Source of the DNA: Pomphorhynchus laevis
Taxonomy: Eukaryota; Acanthocephala; Palaeacanthocephala; Echinorhynchida; Pomphorhynchidae
Direction: 5' to 3'
Assembly: GCA_012934845.2 (NCBI GenBank)
Contig: WNNJ02000272.1
Coordinates: forward strand, 118,623 to 182,622
DNA: 64,000 nt
Every line of letters begins with the position of its first letter. Positions within the stretch are counted from its first letter, which is position 1. Made by a program: the position numbers and the translations under genes. The notes beneath the pieces are model-generated. The model was not told the origin of the DNA, ran no database searches, and saw only the letters and a program-made list of their open reading frames with translations. Shown one piece after another: positions 22,560 through 62,754 of this stretch.

Positions 22560-23658
22560 CTTACCTAATTAAAGCATAACTATAAAATAAAAACTATTGA
22601 TAATGCTAGAAATAACTTTGTATTCATATGCAAAAAGCTTTATATGCTATACTAATGAAAGGTGTTAATTCTAATGATTTAAATGTAAATCCAACATATG
22701 AACGTAGTGATTTCAGTTTAGAAATAATTATTATAAGTCACTGTTCAATAATGTATAAAATGGGTATAAGGGTTGAATCAGATAATAAAACTATATCTAT
22801 ATTATATAAGAATCTAAAATTACATAAAAATCCAATAAAACCTAAGTTTATATGAAGTGCTTTTAAGATTACATTAAAATCACTTTCTATTTATATGAAA
22901 TAAATACTTAAAGTAATTAAAGCACACTAAAAATTCGGTAGGGTAATCGAAATTAATACTGGTATAAAACACTATTTCAGTATTAATTCTACAAAAAAAT
23001 TTTAAAACACACGAAAGGAATGAAATTTCAGAATATAAATACGTACGATTTTAGTACGCTTTATACAAATCTAGATTTAGTAGATATTAAAGAAGCGTTA
23101 GTAAAATTAATTAATCTTATATTCGGAAAAAGATATACATATATATGTTATAATAATTATAACGCCTATCTAACAAAAATTAAACCATCAAATAAATATA
23201 AATATATGGATAAAATTGAATTAATAGAATCCTTAAATATTTTGATAAATCAAAATTATTTAAAAGTAGGGACATCTATATTTAGACAAATAAAAGGTGT
23301 TCCAATGGTAGTTAATAGTAGACAAATTCTGGCTCACTTATTTTTAAACTTTATAGAATATAAATTTGTTCATAACTTTGTAAAAAATAAATCTAAGTTA
23401 TATAAAGATATAAAATATATGTTTCAATGGATTTATGATATATGTGTATTTAACTCCAGTAAGTTTTATTCAATAAACGAAGAAATTTATCCAAGTAGCT
23501 TTATTCTGAATAAAACCAATATTAGTGATAAAGAAGGTGTATATCTAGATATGAACATTAAATTAACATCAATTAATACTACTTTTAATTTATATCGTAA
23601 AGATAATATATTTAAATTTATAGAAGCATATATTTGCACGTTGGAACGTACTGAATGA
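22560..23658 (+). pseudogene. Penelope-like RT, plus copy of inverted pair
   Basis: A PLE coding region broken by stops. 22628-22855 carries YKNLKLHKNPIKPKFI, the Penelope motif that opens the RT. 23020-23658 carries NINTYDFSTLYTNLDLVDI (first catalytic Asp region), RQIKGVPM, and WIYDICVFNSSKFYS, where the catalytic YIDD has become WIYD. DMNIKLTSINTTFNLYRKDN follows. The GVPMGGNS-type motif has decayed to GVPMVVNS. Catalytic residues are lost, so this is a fossil. It stops near 23640 with foreign sequence, lacking the C-terminal part seen in other copies. Confidence 0.7.
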
Positions 23659-23984: not shown

Positions 23985-24135
23985 ATCCATATGTGCTGCT
24001 AAATAACTGGACTTCGATCATTAGCTCCATCAGTCTAATGTATCACTCCGAGACGCTCCTAACCACCCAGCAGCCATCGTCAGTCGGATGAGGTCGTTAG
24101 GATGCGTTTCGACTGCTTTTGTGATAACTGTAAAG
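23985..24135 (-). ncRNA. Family-B hammerhead repeat, copy 1
   Basis: Minus strand, in order: AGCAG-TC-GAAA (24110-24107), stem III strand CGCATCCTAAC, TCATCCGA, CTGACGA (24083-24077; position 7 is variable in hammerheads), GGCTGCT, GTTAGGAGCGTC, then TCGGAGTGA. By-eye pairings: AGCAG/CTGCT, TCCTAAC/GTTAGGA plus CGC/GCG, TCGG/CCGA. The sequences differ from the other copies but the pairs are kept. Predicted cleavage lies between 24052 and 24051. A box-B-like ATCGAAGTCC follows. Confidence 0.6.
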
Positions 24136-24345: not shown

Positions 24346-24425
24346 CAAACTTTAACAACGTTTGAAGCGTTTCGCTCTTACGGAGCTCATCAGTACCATG
24401 ATTTAAATAATCATCCATAGGCACC
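24330..24425 (-). ncRNA. Hammerhead ribozyme candidate, standard order
   Basis: Minus strand: GGTA, CTGATGA, GCTC, loop CGTAA, GAGC, GAAA, CG, CTT, CAAAC ... GTTTG, T, CG, TC. The core, a 4-bp stem II and a stem III (ACG/CGT plus CAAAC/GTTTG) are all in standard hammerhead order, ending in a GTC cleavage triplet. Stem I is weak next to the core; a distal CCTATG/CATAGG pair exists on the two sides. The surrounding sequence (24239-24345) is repeated at 24691-24812, so this is part of a repeat. Confidence 0.5.
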
Positions 24426-24799: not shown

Positions 24800-25020
24800 G
24801 TGTGACTGAATGCATGCTAAATGATCAGTTGGTACTTGATTCTATTGATGAGTCTTGACGATTACTCCATCATTTCGATGCCAAAGTGTTCGTCTAGAAG
24901 TGACATGGTGACTGAAAGTCGTGAATTAAAGTCCTGTCTAACAAGCAACACCATTTTGTATAAATGCCGTATTTCGTAAGAAAACCTGGACCGTTGTTAC
25001 TCAGCACATCTGTGCACACC
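24800..25020 (+). repeat. Family-B SINE-like unit, degenerate core plus unit start
   Basis: TTGATGA (C3 of the hammerhead core changed to T) at 24845-24851, then TTCGATG and TGTTCGTC. TAGAAGTGACATGG begins at 24895, exactly after the GTC. It continues with GTGAATTAAAGTCC and AACACCATTTTGTATAAATGC, matching the unit at 37072. The GAAA strand is not recognisable here. Confidence 0.55.
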
Positions 25021-25084: not shown

Positions 25085-25330
25085 ATGCACAGCAGACTTC
25101 GTAATCACTCTTAGACGAGCTTATGGTAGCCGGCATCACTCATCAGTAGGTTAAACTACCATCACTCGTTTCGGCTGCCTTGTGATATATTTAAAAGGCA
25201 TCCACGAAAATTTGCTTATTTGTCAGCATGGGTATTGCCTCTTTATACTAACCGAGTGCCATAGCACCTATTTTGTTTAAAAAGGCTATAAAATAGAGGC
25301 TACAGTAGTTGTGTTGTGATGAGACAATAT
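25085..25330 (-). repeat. Family-B hammerhead repeat, copy 2
   Basis: Minus strand: GGCAGCC-GAAA (25172-25169), CGAGTGATGGTAG, CTGATGA (25146-25140), GATGCC, CTACCATAAGCTCGTC, TAAGAGTGA. Core nucleotides are intact. Stem III is mostly kept, stem II has one mismatch and stem I is poor, so this copy is decaying. Predicted cleavage lies at 25114/25113. Confidence 0.55.
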
Positions 25331-25379: not shown

Positions 25380-25945
25380 CTCATAAAACAACAAATCGTT
25401 CATTTGCTGCTATCACATTTCATCCCGCACTGATTAAATTTCAAAAAGATTTAAATATCGTCATCCAAAATATTTTAAAACAACTTCAGTATAACATAAT
25501 TGATCCATGCATTACATCGCGCAGGAAAATCAATCAACGATATGATAAAATATAGATCACGTAGAGTAGGTAACTAAAGTGGTCCATGTGGTAGGGCAAG
25601 ATGTAAACGTGGCAAACAAATGAGCAATAAGTCGACGTTCACTAATATCATAACTCACTCAGCATATAAAGTCAAAGAAATGTTAAATTGCAAAACCAAA
25701 GGATTAATATACTTATATGAATGTCAATTGTGAAGCATAATACGTGGGCAAACCGGATCAACTTTTAATATACGTGCTAATAATAAGCGAGCTGATATAG
25801 CTGCTAAAAGGCTAAACAATGATGGATCCATAAGACATATGATTCAAAATCAAGATCATGTAATGAATATCACACTAATTGCACAAATCACAAACGATAT
25901 TACTCACAAAAACACAGAGAACTATTGGCAGATCTCAGCTTAAAT
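25380..25945 (+). pseudogene. Penelope-like element C-terminus with GIY-YIG endonuclease
   Basis: Across several stops and frame changes the plus strand encodes SYHPALIKFQKDLN, then a cysteine cluster (CGRARCKRG in one frame), TFTNIITHSAYKVKEMLNCK, GLIYLYECQL, the GQTG portion of the GIY-YIG active region, and NNKRADIAAKRLNNDGSIRH. This is the layout of the PLE endonuclease that nicks target DNA. The YVG part is split by frame changes, so it is inactive. Minimal hammerhead-like motifs follow at 26133 and 26355. Confidence 0.65.
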
Positions 25946-26132
25946 ACTGAGCACAAATTTAAACTATAGGCATGTTCATGGTATAAAGAGGAACCGAAAA
26001 ACTAACCATCAATAATGGAGAAATATCTTGCTTGGTTACTTCCGTATCTTAAAAAATTCCAGAATGTTCTATCATTATTACAAATTCATGCAGTTTTTGT
26101 AGTGTGTTTGGTTTGAGTGTTTTATATTTGCA

Positions 26133-26170
26133 AATTATTGAAGAAGGCTCACGCCGAAAGCTTTACGAAA
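26133..26170 (+). ncRNA. Minimal PLE hammerhead, copy 1
   Basis: TTGAAGA, AGGC, TCAC, GCC, GAAA, GC: core strand (C3 changed to T), short stem II and GAAA in standard order, as in hammerheads of Penelope-like elements. It lies downstream of a GIY-YIG remnant. Confidence 0.45.
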
Positions 26171-26354
26171 TATTTTGTCATTTGTTAGTGAATTTGGCTC
26201 GGTTAGTTTATCTGTACATATATATAATGTTATTATTTTAAATATTGAAAACATTTATAGGTGGGATGTGGAAATAACAGAACAGAACATTACAACTGAA
26301 TTACCATTATTATTTTTATTTTATATTTTCATAATATATATGTGCTCTTTGTTG

Positions 26355-26395
26355 TTGATTGAGGAAGCTCACTAGCGAAACGTATTAATAAATTA
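26355..26395 (+). ncRNA. Minimal PLE hammerhead, copy 2
   Basis: TTGAGGA, AGCT, CAC, TAGC, GAAA, CG. Second copy about 220 bp after the first, which would fit repeated pseudo-LTR segments of a Penelope-like element. Confidence 0.4.
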
Positions 26396-26529
26396 TTTGC
26401 TTCAAGCAGGAATCCTTATTATATTAATAGTTTACCTCATATTGATCAATCAACTTATATATACTCATATATAATTTAATCGCAGAATGTAATAATTTAA
26501 TCGCAGAATGAGAAAGTAAGCAGCGACAT

Positions 26530-27150
26530 CAATTAAAATTCCTGCTGAATAAAATTAGGATGGTCCGGAAAGCACGTTGTTAGTTTAAAGAGGCTATATA
26601 CCCATGCTACTACGTTAGCAAATTTTCGGAAATGCCTATTTAATATATCACAAGGCAGCCGAAACGACTAATGGTAGTTCACCTTACTGATAAGTGCTGC
26701 CGGCTACAATCAGCTCGTCTAAGAGTGATAAAGAAGTCTGCTCTGCATGTAATCGAACTCCAGTTTTTGGCAAAATCTACGATTATGAATCTGAAGCTTT
26801 TTAGCTCCCGGAGCACAGTTTTACACATTCTGCGATTAAATTATAAAAACGTATCCGATTAATTGATCCTGTGAGAAAGCAAGCAGCGACAGCAATTAAA
26901 ATTCCTGCCGAATAAAATTAGGATGATCCGGAAAGCACGTTGTTAGTTTAAAGAGGCTATGCCCATGCTGCTACTTAGCAAATTCTCGGAGATGCCTTTT
27001 AAATATTTCACAAGGCAGCCGAAACGACTGATGGTAGTTCACCCTACTGATGAGTGCTGCCGGCTACCATCAGCTCGTCTAGGAGTGATAAGGAAGTCTG
27101 CTCTGCATGTAATCGAACTCCGGTTTTTGACAACATCTACGATTATATAT
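26530..27150 (+). repeat. Family-B hammerhead SINE-like tandem pair (360 bp period)
   Basis: Two head-to-tail copies. Shared blocks: CAGCGACA, AAATTCCTGC, TTAGGATG, TCCGGAAAGC, CACAAGGCAGCCGAAACGAC, GTGCTGCCGGCTAC and the box-B-like ATCGAACTCC. GAAA is at 26661 and 27021; predicted cleavage follows 26719 and 27079. Copy 2 keeps all core bases: GAAA, CTGATGA (27047-27053) and GTC. Copy 1 has CTGATAA (G8 to A), expected to be inactive. Pairings in copy 2: GGCAGC/GCTGCC, ACGA/TCGT plus CTGATGGTAG/CTACCATCAG, TAGG(a)GTGA/TCACCCTA. Copy 1 stem I is TAAG/CTTA, a compensated change. Confidence 0.7.
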
Positions 27151-28300
27151 AATAGTATATATATTGAGTGAATATATATTCACTCAATCTCGGTTTCTTA
27201 CAGTCAAACATCCGAAAGTTTGATCCTCTAGTTGATAATGACGTTCTGCATTGCAAATTGTAGAATTTAAGAAGTAAAGCCACCTACAATTTCAGCTAAA
27301 TGTCGAAATGCATTATAATTATATAATTATATATATAATTTTAACATGTCAGATGCTACAATGGTAAAAATGATTAAAAATTAGAATAGACAGCATCTGT
27401 ATTATACATGCAATTATAAAAGTATAAAATAGACTCATATTTCTAGTACCATTTGAGTAGTCCCACATGTGTGCTGAATTTGTTAAGCTAGTATTTTGAA
27501 TAAACATTTTGAAAATAGTATGTATACACATTTGAAACTAATATGTCCCTAAAATCGGTAAATAATGCTTAAAATGCAGTAAAAACAAATCAGCTGAATG
27601 CTCGATAACTTAAAACTTAATCGGATATCGACTCGTTACATGAAAACATAATGAAAATGATAAATACACATAAAGAGTAAATATGCATTAAACAGTGGAA
27701 TTAGAATTTTATTTATTGATTATTTCCTTTATTGAGTATTAGCTTATTTAACATATTATTTGCTAATAATCTTTATATAAATGCTTCGGGTATGCAAATA
27801 ATTAAAACAGTCCTCGTTTAATAAAAAGGATAGAGGCCAGCTGTTTTTGTAAATAATGTTAAGGTTAAAAGGCTTTTCTAGCAAATAATATCTACACAAG
27901 TGTATAGATTGTGACATATCATACATTTTCCAAACTTGTAGAAAGCTTCAAACCATGATAAAGAACATCATAAGGTGTTGCCCTTTACAAGGAAATCTTT
28001 ATAATCTCAACAATAATAATTGTTATGCAACTACCAAATTGAGGAATGTGCCGAAAATATTTTAAAAAATCCGATTAAAAACGAAACTGGTAAAATCTAA
28101 AGCTATTTTAACTAATGTACTTCAAAAATGGTAATGCTGTGAATTAGAAATATCGGATGATTAGTTATGCTCAAGTTGATAACTAAAATAAACTTATATT
28201 GTTAGAGTGCATTGGTTATAGTGCAACTTTATGATGAATTCAAGCTTAGTTTAAACAATTTATAACTTCAGTGGCATTGGACAATATCATATAGAGTAGC
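27150..28300. other. No gene seen
   Basis: AT-rich, with a short TATATAAT run near 27320. Nothing supported. Confidence 0.5.
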
Positions 28301-37071: not shown

Positions 37072-37451
37072 TAGAAGTGACATGGTGACTGAAAGTCGTG
37101 AATCGAAGTCCAGTCTATCAAGCAACACCATTTAGTATAAATGCCGTATTTCGTAAGAAATCCTGGACCGTTGTCTACTCAGCACATTCGTGCATTACTA
37201 TTATACCTGCCGTATCCATTTAGGATCCAACGAGTGCAGCGACAATTCAGCAACAACCTCTGCCTAGTGTTTAAGGATGGTCCGCACAGCAATTCGATCT
37301 GGTTAAGAGCGAAAGCCTCAGACAATTAAGCAAGGTGTCGGAAACGCCTTTATTCACAATGTCACACAGGCAACCGAAACGACCAGTGTGTACCTCATTC
37401 TACTGATGAGTGTTGCCGGGTACTCATCATTTCGATGCTGAAGTGGTCGTC
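37072..37451 (+). mobile_element. Family-B hammerhead SINE-like unit (380 bp, cleavage site to cleavage site)
   Basis: Starts TAGAAGTGACATGG immediately after a GTC and ends at the next GTC (37449-37451), which is again followed by TAGAAGTGACATGG. Near the start is a box-B-like AATCGAAGTCC (37101-37111), as in pol III genes. The 3' part carries GGCAACC-GAAA (37376-37379), CGACCA, TCATTCTA, CTGATGA (37403-37409), GTTGCC and TGGTCGTC. Pairings: GGCAAC/GTTGCC, ACGACCA/TGGTCGT, TAGAA/TTCTA then TGA/TCA. The core is complete. The next unit stops in a TA microsatellite after 65 bp. Confidence 0.7.
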
Positions 37452-37514
37452 TAGAAGTGACATGGTGACTGAAAGTCGTGAATCGAAGTCCAGTCTATCA
37501 AGCAACACCATTTA

Positions 37515-37515
<1 letters not shown>

Positions 37516-37582
<67 letters not shown>
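37516..37582. repeat. (TA)n microsatellite
   Basis: About 33 uninterrupted TA units, directly after the partial second family-B unit, where the first unit has TATAAATGC. The expansion replaced the rest of the unit. Confidence 0.95.
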
Positions 37583-38369: not shown

Positions 38370-39953
38370 ACAAGCATTAGCTCAAATAGCTGGCTCACAA
38401 TAAGTTCGTAAATAAATTAATTAGTTATTAAAATAAGGAAATGCAACACGAAACATTGATTGATCCATTCGTAGTCTTCTTTTAAAAGTATTAAGTGAAC
38501 TGCATCCAACGGTGTCTGCATCAAGGTTGTTCCAAAGCTCAACAATTCTATCAAATTGCATCGCGCCCAATTTCTGTACTCTGTTTCTTCGAATAGTTAA
38601 AGAATGACCGCGAAGAACATTTGAACCACGTAGTTGAACCCTACTCCGAAGAGGGTGATGAGGACGTTGGAATAAATGCCAAACAAGGCACATATCCATG
38701 TACCGACGGGTCCATGTGACGGTCTCAAGTCCTAATGATCTCAGTCTGTCTTCATAAGGCAGCGACGCCAACGTTGGTGCTAGCTTTGTTGCCCTGCGAA
38801 GTACCCTCTCTGATTTCTTATGTTCATGCACAGTACGTAGGTATACAACCGGAGCTGCATATAAAAGTCTACTCAATACATGTGCCAAAATCAGAGGCCG
38901 AAGAGCAGTCGGATTAACGCGAACAAACGCGCGTCGAATCATACCTATCATTTTATTGGAGTTGGCACAAGCTTGATCAGTGTGCTTTTTAGTTGATAAA
39001 TTAGAGGTAACCCATACTCCTAAATCTTTGTAACTATCGACACTTTCCACAATACAGCCCTTATATGTGTAACAAGCTGATGTTAGTTGCTTGCGAGCAT
39101 TACCAATAATACGCATGTGTTTGCATTTCGAAACATTTATCACAAGCTTGTTTGACGCCGCCCACAACTCCACATTATCTATGTCAGTTTGCAAATTATC
39201 AACATCCTCACATGAATGAATGGGCCGCCATATTTTTAAGTCATCTGCATACAAACATGATCGAGAGCGAATGCACCCAGGCAAATCGTTAACATAAATG
39301 CTGAATAAAAGCGGACCCAAAACTGAACCTTGAGGTACTCCAATATGACATTCTCTAGACACAGACAATGACCAATCGACAAGTACTCGAAAGCAACGAT
39401 CACGAAGAAATTCTCTAATCCAATCAACTATTATGTTTGGGAGTCCAGTATTGACAAGTTTCTGAAGAAGTAGACCATGATCTACTCTATCAAAAGCTTT
39501 AGAAAAGTCGAAGAATATAATGTCTGTATCGATATAGTGTGCCTTATTCGCTGTCCAATCAAGATGAGCATCAAGCAAATTTGAAACAGTTGAATAACCC
39601 TCCCGAAATCCGTGCTGATTAGGAACTAAAATTTTTCCTACACGAAAAAACTCAATCATGTAGCGATGCACAAACCTCTCCAACACTCTACAGCAAATGC
39701 AGGTAATGCTCACCGGCCTATAATTCTCGACGGAAGAGCGATCTCCCTTCTTGAAGTAGGGAAGAACAATTGACTGCTTCCACACATTAGGAAGAGATCT
39801 TTCTAAGATTGACTGGCGAAAAATTGCACAGAGAGGAACGCAAATTGAGCCTGCTAATCTGCGCAGATAAACAGAAGGTAGCAAGTCACAACCTCTTGAA
39901 TTATTTGCTTTTAGACGGCGTAATTCGGAATAGACTTTAGCTGGCGTTATCAA
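38370..39953 (-). mobile_element. CR1-like non-LTR element, 5'-truncated
   Basis: Body of the minus-strand RT ORF below plus about 50 bp of 3' UTR. It is inserted in a PLE thumb region. The flanks read AATATTATTATACAT (left) and AATATCATTACATATT (right), consistent with a target duplication of about 13-14 bp that has diverged. The left-hand end is the 3' end of the element. Confidence 0.7.
38421..39953 (-). CDS. Reverse transcriptase of CR1-like element (open, 510 aa)
   Basis: Open minus-strand frame of 510 codons without a stop, the best preserved RT in the window. Motifs in order: KANNSRGCDLLPSVYLRRL, VLPYFKKGDRSSVENYRPVS (RT motif 1), NQHGFREGYSTVSNLLDAH, IIFFDFSKAFDRVDH (catalytic Asp), GVPQGSVLGPLLFSIYVNDL, CLYADDLKIW (catalytic YADD), NKLVINVSKCKHMRI, YKDLGVWVTSNLSTKKH, then the C-terminal RRATKL, LPYEDRLRSLGLETV and NRVQKLGAMQFDRIVELWNN. 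The endonuclease and ORF1 are missing through 5' truncation. It uses more GC-rich codons than its surroundings. A truncated relative is at 59.8-60.4 kb. Confidence 0.92.
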   Translation of the reverse strand: MITPAKVYSELRRLKANNSRGCDLLPSVYLRRLAGSICVPLCAIFRQSILERSLPNVWKQSIVLPYFKKGDRSSVENYRPVSITCICCRVLERFVHRYMIEFFRVGKILVPNQHGFREGYSTVSNLLDAHLDWTANKAHYIDTDIIFFDFSKAFDRVDHGLLLQKLVNTGLPNIIVDWIREFLRDRCFRVLVDWSLSVSRECHIGVPQGSVLGPLLFSIYVNDLPGCIRSRSCLYADDLKIWRPIHSCEDVDNLQTDIDNVELWAASNKLVINVSKCKHMRIIGNARKQLTSACYTYKGCIVESVDSYKDLGVWVTSNLSTKKHTDQACANSNKMIGMIRRAFVRVNPTALRPLILAHVLSRLLYAAPVVYLRTVHEHKKSERVLRRATKLAPTLASLPYEDRLRSLGLETVTWTRRYMDMCLVWHLFQRPHHPLRSRVQLRGSNVLRGHSLTIRRNRVQKLGAMQFDRIVELWNNLDADTVGCSSLNTFKRRLRMDQSMFRVAFPYFNN

Positions 39954-50761: not shown

Positions 50762-51590
50762 AATATCTCAAAACGAGAATGATACCAATCCGCGTGAATT
50801 TTGTCAGCCATTTTAGCCAGACGCGGAAGAACAACGAAAAACATTGCTAGATGCCGTTTCGTCATCACTATGACTCTCCAGTGTCAATTTCCTCCCACTG
50901 CTGGTTGCAAAGGAGGACTAGCAGACGGCTCTATCAAAGAATCATGTGAATGATGCACTAGAAAACCTCTAAGACATCATCATTGAGTGCTGAACCAGCA
51001 CTACCGCTTTCCCAAATAAGATCATTAGCGCAAAGGTACTGGCAAACGCCAGCGAAAGGTATCTTTGTATCGGCTAACTTGATTTATAAATATCTAAAAA
51101 CGAGAGTGATACCAATCCGCGTAAATTTTGTTAGTCATTTTAACCAGACGAGGAAGAACAACGAAAAACACTGCTAGATGCCGTTTCGTCATCACTATGA
51201 CTCTTCAGTGCCAGTTCCCTCCCACTGCTGTGCTGGATGCAGAGGAGGACTAACAAACGGCTCTATCAAAGAATCATGTGAATGATGCACTAGAAAACCT
51301 TAAAGACATAATCATTGAGTGCTGAAGCAGCACTACCGCTTCACCAAATAGGATCATTAGCGCAAAGGTACTGGCAAATGCCAGCGAAACGTATCTTGTG
51401 TATCGGCTAACTTATTTTATGAATATCTCAAAACGAGGGTGATACCAATCTGCGTGAATTTCATTTTAGCCAGACGCGGAAGAAAACAAAAAATACTGAT
51501 ACATGCCGTTTCGTCATCACTATGACTCTTCAGTGCCTGTTCCCTCCCACTGCTGGATGCAGAGGAGGACTAGCAGACGGCTCTTTAAAT
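50762..51590. repeat. Satellite, ~330 bp unit, about 2.5 copies
   Basis: Each unit begins AATATCTMAAAACGAGRRTG (50763, 51089, 51423) and contains GATGCCGTTTCGTCATCACT and TGGCAAAYGCCAGCGAAA. On the minus strand each unit has CTGRAGA, GTCAT, AGTG, ATGAC, GAAA, CGGC: a hammerhead core strand, a 5-bp stem II and GAAA in standard order (units 2 and 3 with CTGAAGA, unit 1 with CTGGAGA). Stems I and III are uncertain. Confidence 0.75.
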
Positions 51591-51689
51591 GTCAAATTAG
51601 ATGTTGTATAATTTATATTAAGTAAAAAAATTAAAATTTAAAACTAAAATCAATTTTTATGAATTGACTAATAAAGAATATGCGATGTA

Positions 51690-61235: not shown

Positions 61236-61420
61236 AGTGGTAATTCAGCTGTCTTCTAGATTGCTTTTTCGACTTTGCTCCAAAAAAGATATATTTTTTG
61301 AACTCGATCCAATCAGGTATGTACGGATGTGTTTAAGCGTTATGTGAAAACGTTTAATAATTACTAGTAGATGTTTAAATTGTTTATTTTTCTGTACATT
61401 TAGTAAAAGTGTACAGAAAA

Positions 61421-62412
61421 CTTGTCCGGGCAGATAGCTTGCAAGTGCAGATAGCTTGTCCGTGCAGATAACTTGTCCGTGCAGACAGCTTGTCCGTGCA
61501 GATAGCTTGTCCGTGCAGATAGCTTGCTGTGCAGATAGCTTGACCATGCATGTAGCTTGACAAGGCATATAGCTTGACCATTCATATAGCTTGACCGTGC
61601 ATATTGCTTGACCGTGCATATAGCTTGCCCGTGCAGATAGCTTGCTCGTGCAGATAGCTTGCCTGTACAGATAGCTTGCCCGTGCAGATAGCTTGACCAT
61701 GCATATAGCTTGACAAGGCATATAGCTTGGCTATGCATATAGCTTGACCGTGCAAATAGCTTGACCGTGCATATAGCTTGCCCGTGCAGATAGCTTGGCC
61801 ATGCATATAGCTTGACCGTGCATGTAGCTTGTCCGTTCAGATAGCTTGCCCGGGCAGATAGCTTTCCCGTGCAGATAGCTTTCCCGTGCAGATAGCTTGA
61901 TAGTGCAGATAGCTTGATAGTGCAGATAGTTTGCCCGTGCAGATAGCTTGCCTGTGCAGATAGCTTGCCCGTGCATATAGCTTGCCCGTGCAGATAGCTT
62001 GTCCGTGCAGATAGCTTGACTATGCATATAGCTTGACCGTGCAAATAGCTTGACCGTGCATATAGCTTGCCCGTGCAGATAGCTTGGCCATGCATATAGC
62101 TTGACCGTGCATATAGCTTGGCCGTGCAGATAGCTTGCCCATGCAGATAGCTTGCCCGTGCAGATAGCTTGTTTAATCAGATAGCCCGCTCGTGCAGATA
62201 GCTTGCTCGTGCAGATAGCTTGGCCATGCATATATCTTGACCGTGCATATAACTTGCTCGTGCAGATAGCTTGCTCGTGCAGATAGCTTGCTCGTGCAGA
62301 TAGCTTGCTCGTGCAGATAGCTTGCTCGTGCAGATAGCTTGCTCGGACAGATAGCTTGCTCGGACAGATAGCTTGCTCGGACAGATAGCTTGCCCGTGCT
62401 GATAGCTTGCCC
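61421..62412. repeat. 17-bp minisatellite, ~58 copies
   Basis: Unit CGTGCAGATAGCTTGCC with variants (GTGCATATAGCTTGACC and others), 17 bp throughout. Neither the unit nor most variants contain stop codons on the minus strand, so three overlapping minus-strand frames of up to 264 codons run through it. All encode the same 17-residue cycle (for example GQAICTGKLSARASYLH). They are best read as by-products of the repeat. An 8-bp palindrome TCTGTACA/TGTACAGA precedes the array. Confidence 0.95.
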
Positions 62413-62429
62413 TTATTAAGCAAATGCCT

Positions 62430-62754
62430 TTTATGGAACAAATATTTTGACGAACTTATGCTAACCTTCATCTCCAGATACAAAAACAGAGTTATACTTA
62501 ACCCCACTAGTCTAGCCAGTATCAATTACCGTATTTCATTCATGACATTCGACCTCGCCAATGAATACATAAAGTTCGCTAAGGACAATCTGGCTCATAA
62601 AGCCACAGTTACCTATATGCCAATCCTGGCAACAATTAAAATCACGAATATCACGCCCGAGGTAGACACGGGCGATATTATGGCACTGGAGAAAATGTAC
62701 AGTATCTACAACCTCATATTCATCAAGTGTAAAGGGAGCATCCCATACCCATAG
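62430..62754 (+). other. Coding-like segment, possibly ORF1 of a transposon
   Basis: Frame to 62754: DELMLTFISRYKNRVILNPT, SINYRISFMTFDLANEYIKF, ATIKITNITPEVDTGDIMAL, ending CKGSIPYP. The codon composition is protein-like and the end is a clear stop. The ITNITPEVDTGDI stretch resembles the RNA-binding part of Gag/ORF1 proteins of jockey-type elements, but the likeness is weak. The ATG at 62407 lies inside the minisatellite edge and is unlikely to be the real start. Confidence 0.3.

Follow-up and report, generated by a model that had tools for sequence, protein, structure and literature searches.

A tandem repeat in the genome of the acanthocephalan Pomphorhynchus laevis probably encodes a self-cleaving, non-circularly permuted hammerhead ribozyme with its strands in the order G-C-S, and belongs to a retrozyme-like repeat family. 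The strands are present in this order, four helices are conserved and covary, the units form tandem arrays, and the family has been amplified recently. The hammerhead core, the G-C-S cycle, the three pairings and the additional long helix had been proposed in an initial annotation of the same DNA, and they are borne out by the sequence, by a structural descriptor and by covariation.

Anatomy of the B1 element and related copies

The window, i.e. the whole 64-kb stretch of DNA that was analysed, contains six related copies of the element according to a covariance model built from the collected copies. Two of these, the B1 copies at 26652-26733 and 27012-27093, lie in tandem with a spacing of 360 nt, and a sequence check located all the strands listed in the initial annotation at the positions given there. 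The core of the copy at 27012-27093 is intact, whereas that of the copy at 26652 reads CTGATAA in place of CTGATGA, so that the latter is probably a dead ribozyme. Stem I of this copy retains a compensatory change (TAAG with CTTA). The features of the window that are relevant to the element are the following.

27012..27093, + strand: B1 type-GCS hammerhead, copy c2, core intact (descriptor 27.2; covariance model 89.5 bits)
27014..27020, + strand: stem II 5' strand GGCAGCC, partner 27054-27061 (pairing, covariation counts)
27021..27024, + strand: block G core GAAA (sequence; kept in the alignment)
27024..27027, + strand: stem III 5' strand ACGA, partner 27075-27078 (pairing, covariation counts)
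27028..27037, + strand: helix IV 5' strand CTGATGGTAG, the putative clamp of stems I and II, partner 27064-27073 (pairing, covariation, subfamily comparison)
27039..27046, + strand: stem I 5' strand TCACCCTA, partner 27080-27088 (pairing, covariation counts)
27047..27053, + strand: block C core CTGATGA (sequence)
27054..27061, + strand: stem II 3' strand G(T)GCTGCC with a 1-nt U bulge (pairing, covariation counts)
27062..27063, + strand: GG linker, identical across the four subfamily sequences (subfamily comparison)
27064..27073, + strand: helix IV 3' strand CTACCATCAG (pairing, covariation counts)
27075..27079, + strand: stem III 3' strand and site TCGTC, with GUC at 27077-27079 and the predicted cut at 27079/27080 (sequence; general hammerhead rule; PMC10085705)
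27080..27088, + strand: stem I 3' strand TAGGAGTGA with a 1-nt bulge (pairing, covariation counts)
26652..26733, + strand: B1 copy c1, mutated core CTGATAA, predicted cut at 26719/26720 (sequence; covariance model)
26720..27079, + strand: full tandem unit of 360 nt, from predicted cut to predicted cut (self-comparison, unit analysis)
26509..27146, + strand: entire two-copy B1 repeat
25100..25181, - strand: B1 copy c3 (covariance model)
24038..24119, - strand: subfamily C type-GCS hammerhead, core intact (descriptor and covariance model)
37367..37465, + strand: subfamily B2 type-GCS hammerhead, core intact, with a 16-nt insert between helix IV and stem III (descriptor and covariance model)
37072..37522, + strand: B2 insert consisting of a 380-nt unit and a 71-nt tail, its 5' end at most 3 nt from the predicted cut
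24809..24908, + strand: B2-like copy, decayed (covariance model, 50.8 bits)
27178..27314, + strand: remnant of a subfamily F unit without ribozyme (88% identity to locus L040)

A descriptor comprising stems I, II and III and the core bases was scanned over the window in all six block orders. It gave three GCS matches (27009 on the plus strand, score 27.2; 24122 on the minus strand, 22.9; 37364 on the plus strand, 20.4) and one match of the standard type-III order SCG (51270 on the minus strand, score 20.3). Sixty simulated windows yielded 7 matches, 3 of them GCS, with a top score of 16.0. The other three of the six window copies (26652 +, 25100 - and 24809 +) fail the descriptor, being too decayed. 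A search with Rfam (4227 models, release 15) assigned no family to the copies at 26000-27700 and none at the gathering threshold in the window, as is to be expected from the permuted block order.

Several other elements were observed in the window. At 50800-51600 on the minus strand there are three tandem copies, about 320-330 nt apart, of a type III-like hammerhead in standard order that differs from the GCS repeat (CTGAAGA in two copies and CTGGAGA in the third; GAAACGGC; GCCGTC or GCCGTT). One of them passes the descriptor with a score of 20.3, and Rfam gave no hammerhead match for this repeat. The sequence CTGATGAGCTCCGTAAGAGCGAAACGC at 24370-24400 on the minus strand corresponds to one half of a hammerhead in standard C-then-G order, stem II included, near which neither inspection by eye nor the descriptor found a matching cleavage site. 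A LINE-type reverse transcriptase is encoded by an open reading frame of 510 aa at 38421-39953 on the minus strand (RVT_1, E 5.7e-32). Two fragments on the plus strand, 22987-23658 and 25578-25950, we take by eye to resemble a Penelope-type reverse transcriptase and a GIY-YIG region; a Pfam search of these two fragments gave 0 matches. Fragments such as these may supply the enzyme for mobilisation of the repeats. Lastly, overlapping open reading frames at 61245-62525 on the minus strand encode the repeated peptide ASYLHGQAICT and variants of it, and are probably a translated tandem repeat.

Subfamilies and covariation of the helices

The tandem repeat comprises at least four subfamilies, B1, B2, C and F, all with the GCS design. 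They are represented by 27012-27093 for B1, 37367-37465 for B2, 24038-24119 on the minus strand plus tandem copies elsewhere for C, and locus L040 for F, the intact ribozymes of which are located outside the window, where only the remnant listed above is found. The family is wider than the 'family B' of the initial annotation, as it includes subfamilies C, B2 and F. The strands of all four follow each other as stem II, GAAA, stem III, helix IV, stem I and CTGAnGA in the first half, and as stem II, GG, helix IV, stem III with GTC, and stem I in the second half. Stem III has 4 bp in B1, C and F, followed by a 1-nt bulge and a helix IV of 10 positions. The bulge is on the 3' strand in B1 and F and on the 5' strand in C, where the bulge-adjacent pair is replaced by a mismatch in 13 of the 22 distinct sequences. 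In subfamily B2, stem III can be up to 7 bp long, helix IV comprises 8 positions with a U-U mismatch, and 16 additional nucleotides separate the two.

The 10-bp pairing of CTGATGGTAG with CTACCATCAG had initially been assigned to stem III. It does pair and covary, but the sequences favour its interpretation as a distinct helix, helix IV, connecting stems I and II at their distal ends. The distinction from stem III is based on the 1-nt bulge between the two helices and on the 16-nt insert in B2, and the joining of the distal ends is based on the linkers at the distal end of helix IV (1 nt before stem I and GG after stem II), which are of equal length in the four subfamilies. A single 14-bp stem III was rejected as the sole reading, because B2 splits stem III from helix IV. 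By its predicted position, helix IV occupies the place of the loop-loop contact in known hammerheads, and as an interaction linking stems I and II it covaries at the level of secondary structure.

The motifs CTGAnGA, GAAA and GTC and the GG linker are identical in the B1, F, B2 and C sequences, and the same is true for all hammerhead core bases (CUGAnGA, GAAA, the A-U beside the site, and H17). Among the distinct sequences the core is intact in 13 of 16 for B1, 19 of 22 for C and 27 of 31 for B2, which amounts to 59 of 69. B1 units align with those of B2 and C over long stretches at about 60-65% identity, B2 and C units are alignable in parts only (61-65% identity), and F shows 75% identity to B2 over 157 nt. 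We take this as one old family in which the stems were exchanged and the core was retained. Two further relatives were noted. A decayed one at locus L018:2396-2530 on the plus strand (subfamily G) has lost the G of GAAA, and its stem I, TAGTATG/CATACTA, appears by eye to be another compensated stem. At locus L008:891-972 on the plus strand there is a B2 variant without the 16-nt insert (descriptor 21.5), in which, by eye, stem III is longer and continuous and helix IV is small.

For the covariation analysis, full-length copies were gathered by sequence similarity and not by pairing, which yielded 401 matches representing 69 distinct sequences; the 401 include overlapping loci, and only distinct counts were therefore used. 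The pairings examined in the full-length copies and in the subfamily comparisons were assigned manually for B1, B2, C and F. Sixty-four of the 69 distinct sequences were aligned, 5 sequences with more than 3 gaps having been dropped beforehand. Two pairs whose columns shift between subfamilies, pair 1 of stem II and pair 5 of stem I, were left out of the pair counts, and helix IV was counted in its column-consistent part only (7 column pairs, with the B1 letters at both columns for 4 of them).

Over the 24 pairs of the four crossing helices, 95.9% of 1493 cells are standard pairs in the 64 sequences, compared to a mean of 83.9% upon shuffling, and 0 of 500 shuffles reach the observed value. 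Cells with changes on both sides number 210, as opposed to 68.9 in the shuffles, and when the partner is displaced by one to three columns, 23-43% remain paired. Such changes on both sides are found for 3 of 6 pairs in stem II, 1 of 4 in stem III, 4 of 7 in helix IV and 4 of 7 in stem I. The number of further pair types was not above that in the shuffles (23 versus 22.2, with 160 of 500 shuffles reaching 23), and one helix IV column pair, the U-U of B2, is unpaired in 28 of 50 cells.

It should be noted that related sequences can beat shuffles. Since kinship can inflate the shuffle result in this way, one-to-one comparisons of the subfamilies were added. Between B1 and C, 13 of 29 pairs are changed on both sides, 1 on one side and 15 are unchanged. 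The respective numbers are 7, 1 and 19 of 27 pairs for B1 and B2, and 10, 1 and 16 of 27 pairs for B2 and C. Null draws reached the observed pairing 0 times for B1/C, once for B1/B2 and 0 times for B2/C, each in 200,000. B1 and F differ on both sides at 6 pairs and on one side at 1, with 22 of 29 unchanged. When B1, F, B2 and C are combined, 15 of the 29 pairs show a change on both sides somewhere. The covariation over many copies by which the initial annotation had suggested to check its proposal was thus found, with pair counts and subfamily comparisons in place of R-scape.

Abundance, insertion ends and a proposed life cycle

Patterns were searched in the entire 249-Mb own genome, each alongside a control. 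A 35-mer of F occurs in 808 exact copies genome-wide, with 0 matches for the reversed control. GAAACG followed by CTGAnGA was found genome-wide 2,567 times at a spacing of 20 (control 5) and 4,120 times at a spacing of 21 (control 11), i.e. 6,687 G-then-C cores versus 16 control matches for both spacings together, where these patterns probe the G-then-C part only. The pattern search of viral_contigs gave 0 matches. DNA searches of the own genome returned 948 first-look candidates for C, 1221 for B1, 1174 for B2 and 547 for F, of which 37-40 were scored per subfamily search. The ribozyme alone was a poor query in the own genome, with 2 matches only for B1 and 0 for B2 despite the presence of the query, presumably due to the skipping of common words.

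Tandem copies are spaced by 389-394 nt in C, about 361 nt in B1, 380 nt in B2 and 357 nt in F, the latter being near 353 nt in one long array. The units thus measure about 350-394 nt, with a GC content of 0.41-0.45 in B1, B2 and C, and the insertions have fixed 3' ends, as described below. These properties suit retrozyme-like repeats better than the label 'SINE-like' that had been given to the element. Animal non-LTR retrozymes are described as tandem repeats of about 150-450 bp with a GC content below 50% and a hammerhead in each unit (Cervera and de la Pena 2020, PMC7229834), which resembles the unit size and GC content found here. However, they carry standard type I hammerheads according to the same source, so that the GCS order marks the present repeat as one with a retrozyme layout and not as a type I member. 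Among the matches listed, 108 F units agree with the query at every one of 301 nt, and arrays of F contain up to 12 consecutive listed units, each with 100% identity over 301 nt. Together with the 808 exact 35-mers, these identical array units indicate from the sequences that F was amplified recently.

Junctions less than 25 nt from a locus edge were excluded from the counts of insertion ends. Fixed 3' ends were found at unit positions 126 (14 of 33 distinct junctions) and 67 (4) for B1, 71 (12 of 39) and 134 (10) for B2, and 139 (14 of 34) for C. The sampled fixed 3' ends finish in TATA or TAT and mostly adjoin TA-rich DNA, which makes their exact last base uncertain. The 5' ends are variable, and a number of inserts are inverted head-to-head. 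Head-to-head inverted unit pairs, each of a single subfamily, were seen at L037, L040, L041, L046, L059, L091 and other loci, and their 5' ends are often at unrelated unit positions. Penelope-like elements also show inverted arrangements, as does the repeat studied here. They furthermore share with it a ribozyme within a retroelement and a defined insertion 'tail' (PMC11167929), but their hammerheads are described as standard minimal type I variants (PMC7229834) and therefore differ in order.

We propose that multimeric transcripts of the arrays would be cleaved 3' of every GUC, releasing units of about 350-394 nt, that these units may circularise by analogy with animal retrozymes, and that a reverse transcriptase provided in trans would return them to the genome as DNA copies. 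If a cut RNA were copied to its end, the 5' ends of insertions would be expected to gather at the cut. For B2, 6 of 46 distinct junctions are at -2..0 relative to the predicted cut, as compared to 0.36 expected; they are located 1-3 nt upstream of the cut, and 3 of them are in inverted arrangements. This interval was picked after inspection of the data, and the 3 clean B2 ends alone give a P of 0.006. In B1 and C, 0 of 36 and 1 of 32 junctions, respectively, have a 5' end at -2..0. The B2 ends also cluster more broadly over -7..+13 (13 of 46). Insertions starting exactly at the cut were rejected as a description of these data, because B2 ends are found at -7..0 and beyond, and B1 and C ends hardly at all. 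The insertion 5' ends therefore hint weakly at cleavage.

Mode of folding and relation to known hammerheads

Non-circular permutations of the hammerhead were described and assayed by Eckert, Friedrich, Weinberg and Weinberg in 2023, who defined the blocks G, C and S (PMC10085705). The view of the initial annotation that no hammerhead of this type had been described was thus mistaken, as the types SGC and CSG and one GCS candidate were published in that year. The paper reports 583 predicted sequences of type SGC, the first from metatranscriptomes, two of type CSG from metagenomes, and one bacterial sequence of type GCS, GCS-1 of Caballeronia peredens, which comes without covariation and with the authors' advice for more scepticism. 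GCS-1 cleaved in vitro at 0.014 per min, its biological significance being unclear according to the authors. In a search of the mainly open-access literature we found no other report of permuted or rearranged hammerheads; the two works citing the 2023 paper that we found are, by title, structure-comparison tools.

GCS-1 has the same G-C-S order and is reported to possess all expected features. For GCS RNAs, the authors consider that stem III itself may draw stems I and II together (PMC10085705), and stem III plus helix IV may act alike here. While GCS-1 is a single bacterial sequence, the P. laevis family comprises thousands of copies, its subfamilies, at least four in number, covary, and it differs from GCS-1 as described in having a defined helix IV and in being carried by a mobile repeat. 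The SGC RNAs (HRIMA-1 and variants) and CSG RNAs share the reversed cycle, a helix connecting stems I and II at their distal ends, and two core pseudoknots. They start at another block, being circular permutations of GCS. The GCS order further requires helix IV to lead back into stem III on its 3' strand.

In the fold that we propose, stems I, II and III would surround the catalytic core in a pseudoknotted arrangement, and the distal parts of stems I and II would be clamped by helix IV, with linkers of 1 nt and GG, as a substitute for the loop-loop contact. The crossing of the pairings had led to the initial statement that one copy cannot fold them together. This was overstated, since published RNAs of the same reversed cycle fold with crossing helices and cleave (PMC10085705), and since a coarse model allows folding in cis at the cost of opening no more than one or two pairs. 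In this bead model, which uses ideal helices, omits stem I and was run in six settings, B2 and the majority form of C adopt the fold as drawn in 6 of 6 settings. We think, with a small preference, that the fold works mainly in cis, assembly with a neighbouring unit within the transcript being nearly as likely. Both modes keep the claim of a functional G-C-S hammerhead.

A real possibility, albeit not the one we favour, is that the ribozyme is active only between copies, which would be an alternative mode of the same ribozyme. The hairpin of stem III and helix IV in each unit would expose the CUGAnGA loop, which would dock on the IIa and Ib flanks elsewhere, usually in the next tandem unit, thereby restoring the standard hammerhead connectivity. 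Consistent with this, the minimum free energy structure of a single copy holds the hairpin of stem III and helix IV in B1 (z -2.26 relative to shuffles) and C (z -2.78), and stem III and most of helix IV in B2, although the B2 structure is no better than shuffles (z +0.75). Furthermore, stem III and helix IV of B1 and F are continuous save for one bulged nucleotide, and with all pairs closed their cis model is strained (residual 31, about 4 A too far); by reasoning, a tandem or trans complex would be free of this strain. The units do occur in tandem, and axolotl retrozyme hammerheads are reported to cleave far better as dimers (PMC7229834). On the other hand, the 16-nt insert of B2 and the mismatch of C (13 of 22 distinct sequences) ease the cis strain, opening one pair in 3 of 6 settings or two pairs in 6 of 6 is enough for B1 and F to fit, and the published RNAs of the same cyclic order were interpreted as cis-acting (PMC10085705). 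That the permuted order is itself an adaptation to tandem transcripts, with cleavage exclusively by docking of the loop on a neighbour unit, we consider somewhat unlikely.

It is improbable that the hammerhead core is a relic and that the structure is kept because it serves in a different process, for instance in packaging or protecting the repeat RNA or in its recognition by reverse transcriptase. The ribozyme indeed terminates near the unit positions at which the 3' ends of insertions are fixed (67-71 and 126-139), and the heap of B2 5' ends over -7..+13 could reflect stalling of reverse transcription at the structure. However, identical CUGAnGA, GAAA and GUC motifs in four subfamilies, while 15 of 29 pairs were exchanged, would hardly be expected of a relic, and the core is intact in the recently spread F and B2. 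Very improbable is an ordinary type I, II or III hammerhead read across the repeat boundary, i.e. a simple circular permutation. Tandem repeats would permit this, and in a dimer CUGAnGA of the first copy with GAAA and GUC of the second has standard connectivity, but the cycle of the unit or of a unit circle is G-C-S, no rotation of which gives C-G-S. Moreover, the six-order scan of the window copies gave GCS only, and 32 loci gave 64 GCS matches (19 distinct) as compared to 2 SGC matches (1 distinct, overlapping a GCS copy). Chance complementarity multiplied by the abundance of the repeat has a negligible probability: copies within a subfamily are nearly identical, so that copy number alone is no proof, but any two subfamilies are separated by changes on both sides of 6 to 13 pairs, with at most 1 unpaired position each, the sixty simulated windows fall short of the scores in the window, and the shuffle and null-draw results on covariation contradict it.

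For the preferred reading of a functional G-C-S hammerhead, the four subfamilies and thousands of copies supply the covariation for the sixth permutation, GCS, that was missing in the 2023 paper. Since the Rfam models did not detect the family here, repeats of this kind may have escaped notice elsewhere. For bench work, the family offers several sequences that spread recently and are nearly identical. A functional element would also raise the question of whether the fold is kept for the stability of monomers or for multimer-dependent cutting. Should cleavage occur by docking only, cuts would be confined to multimers, released monomers or circles would be stable, and the hammerhead would in effect count its own copies. 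If functional, the element would place a pseudoknotted, non-circular permutation of the hammerhead in an abundant mobile repeat of a eukaryote.
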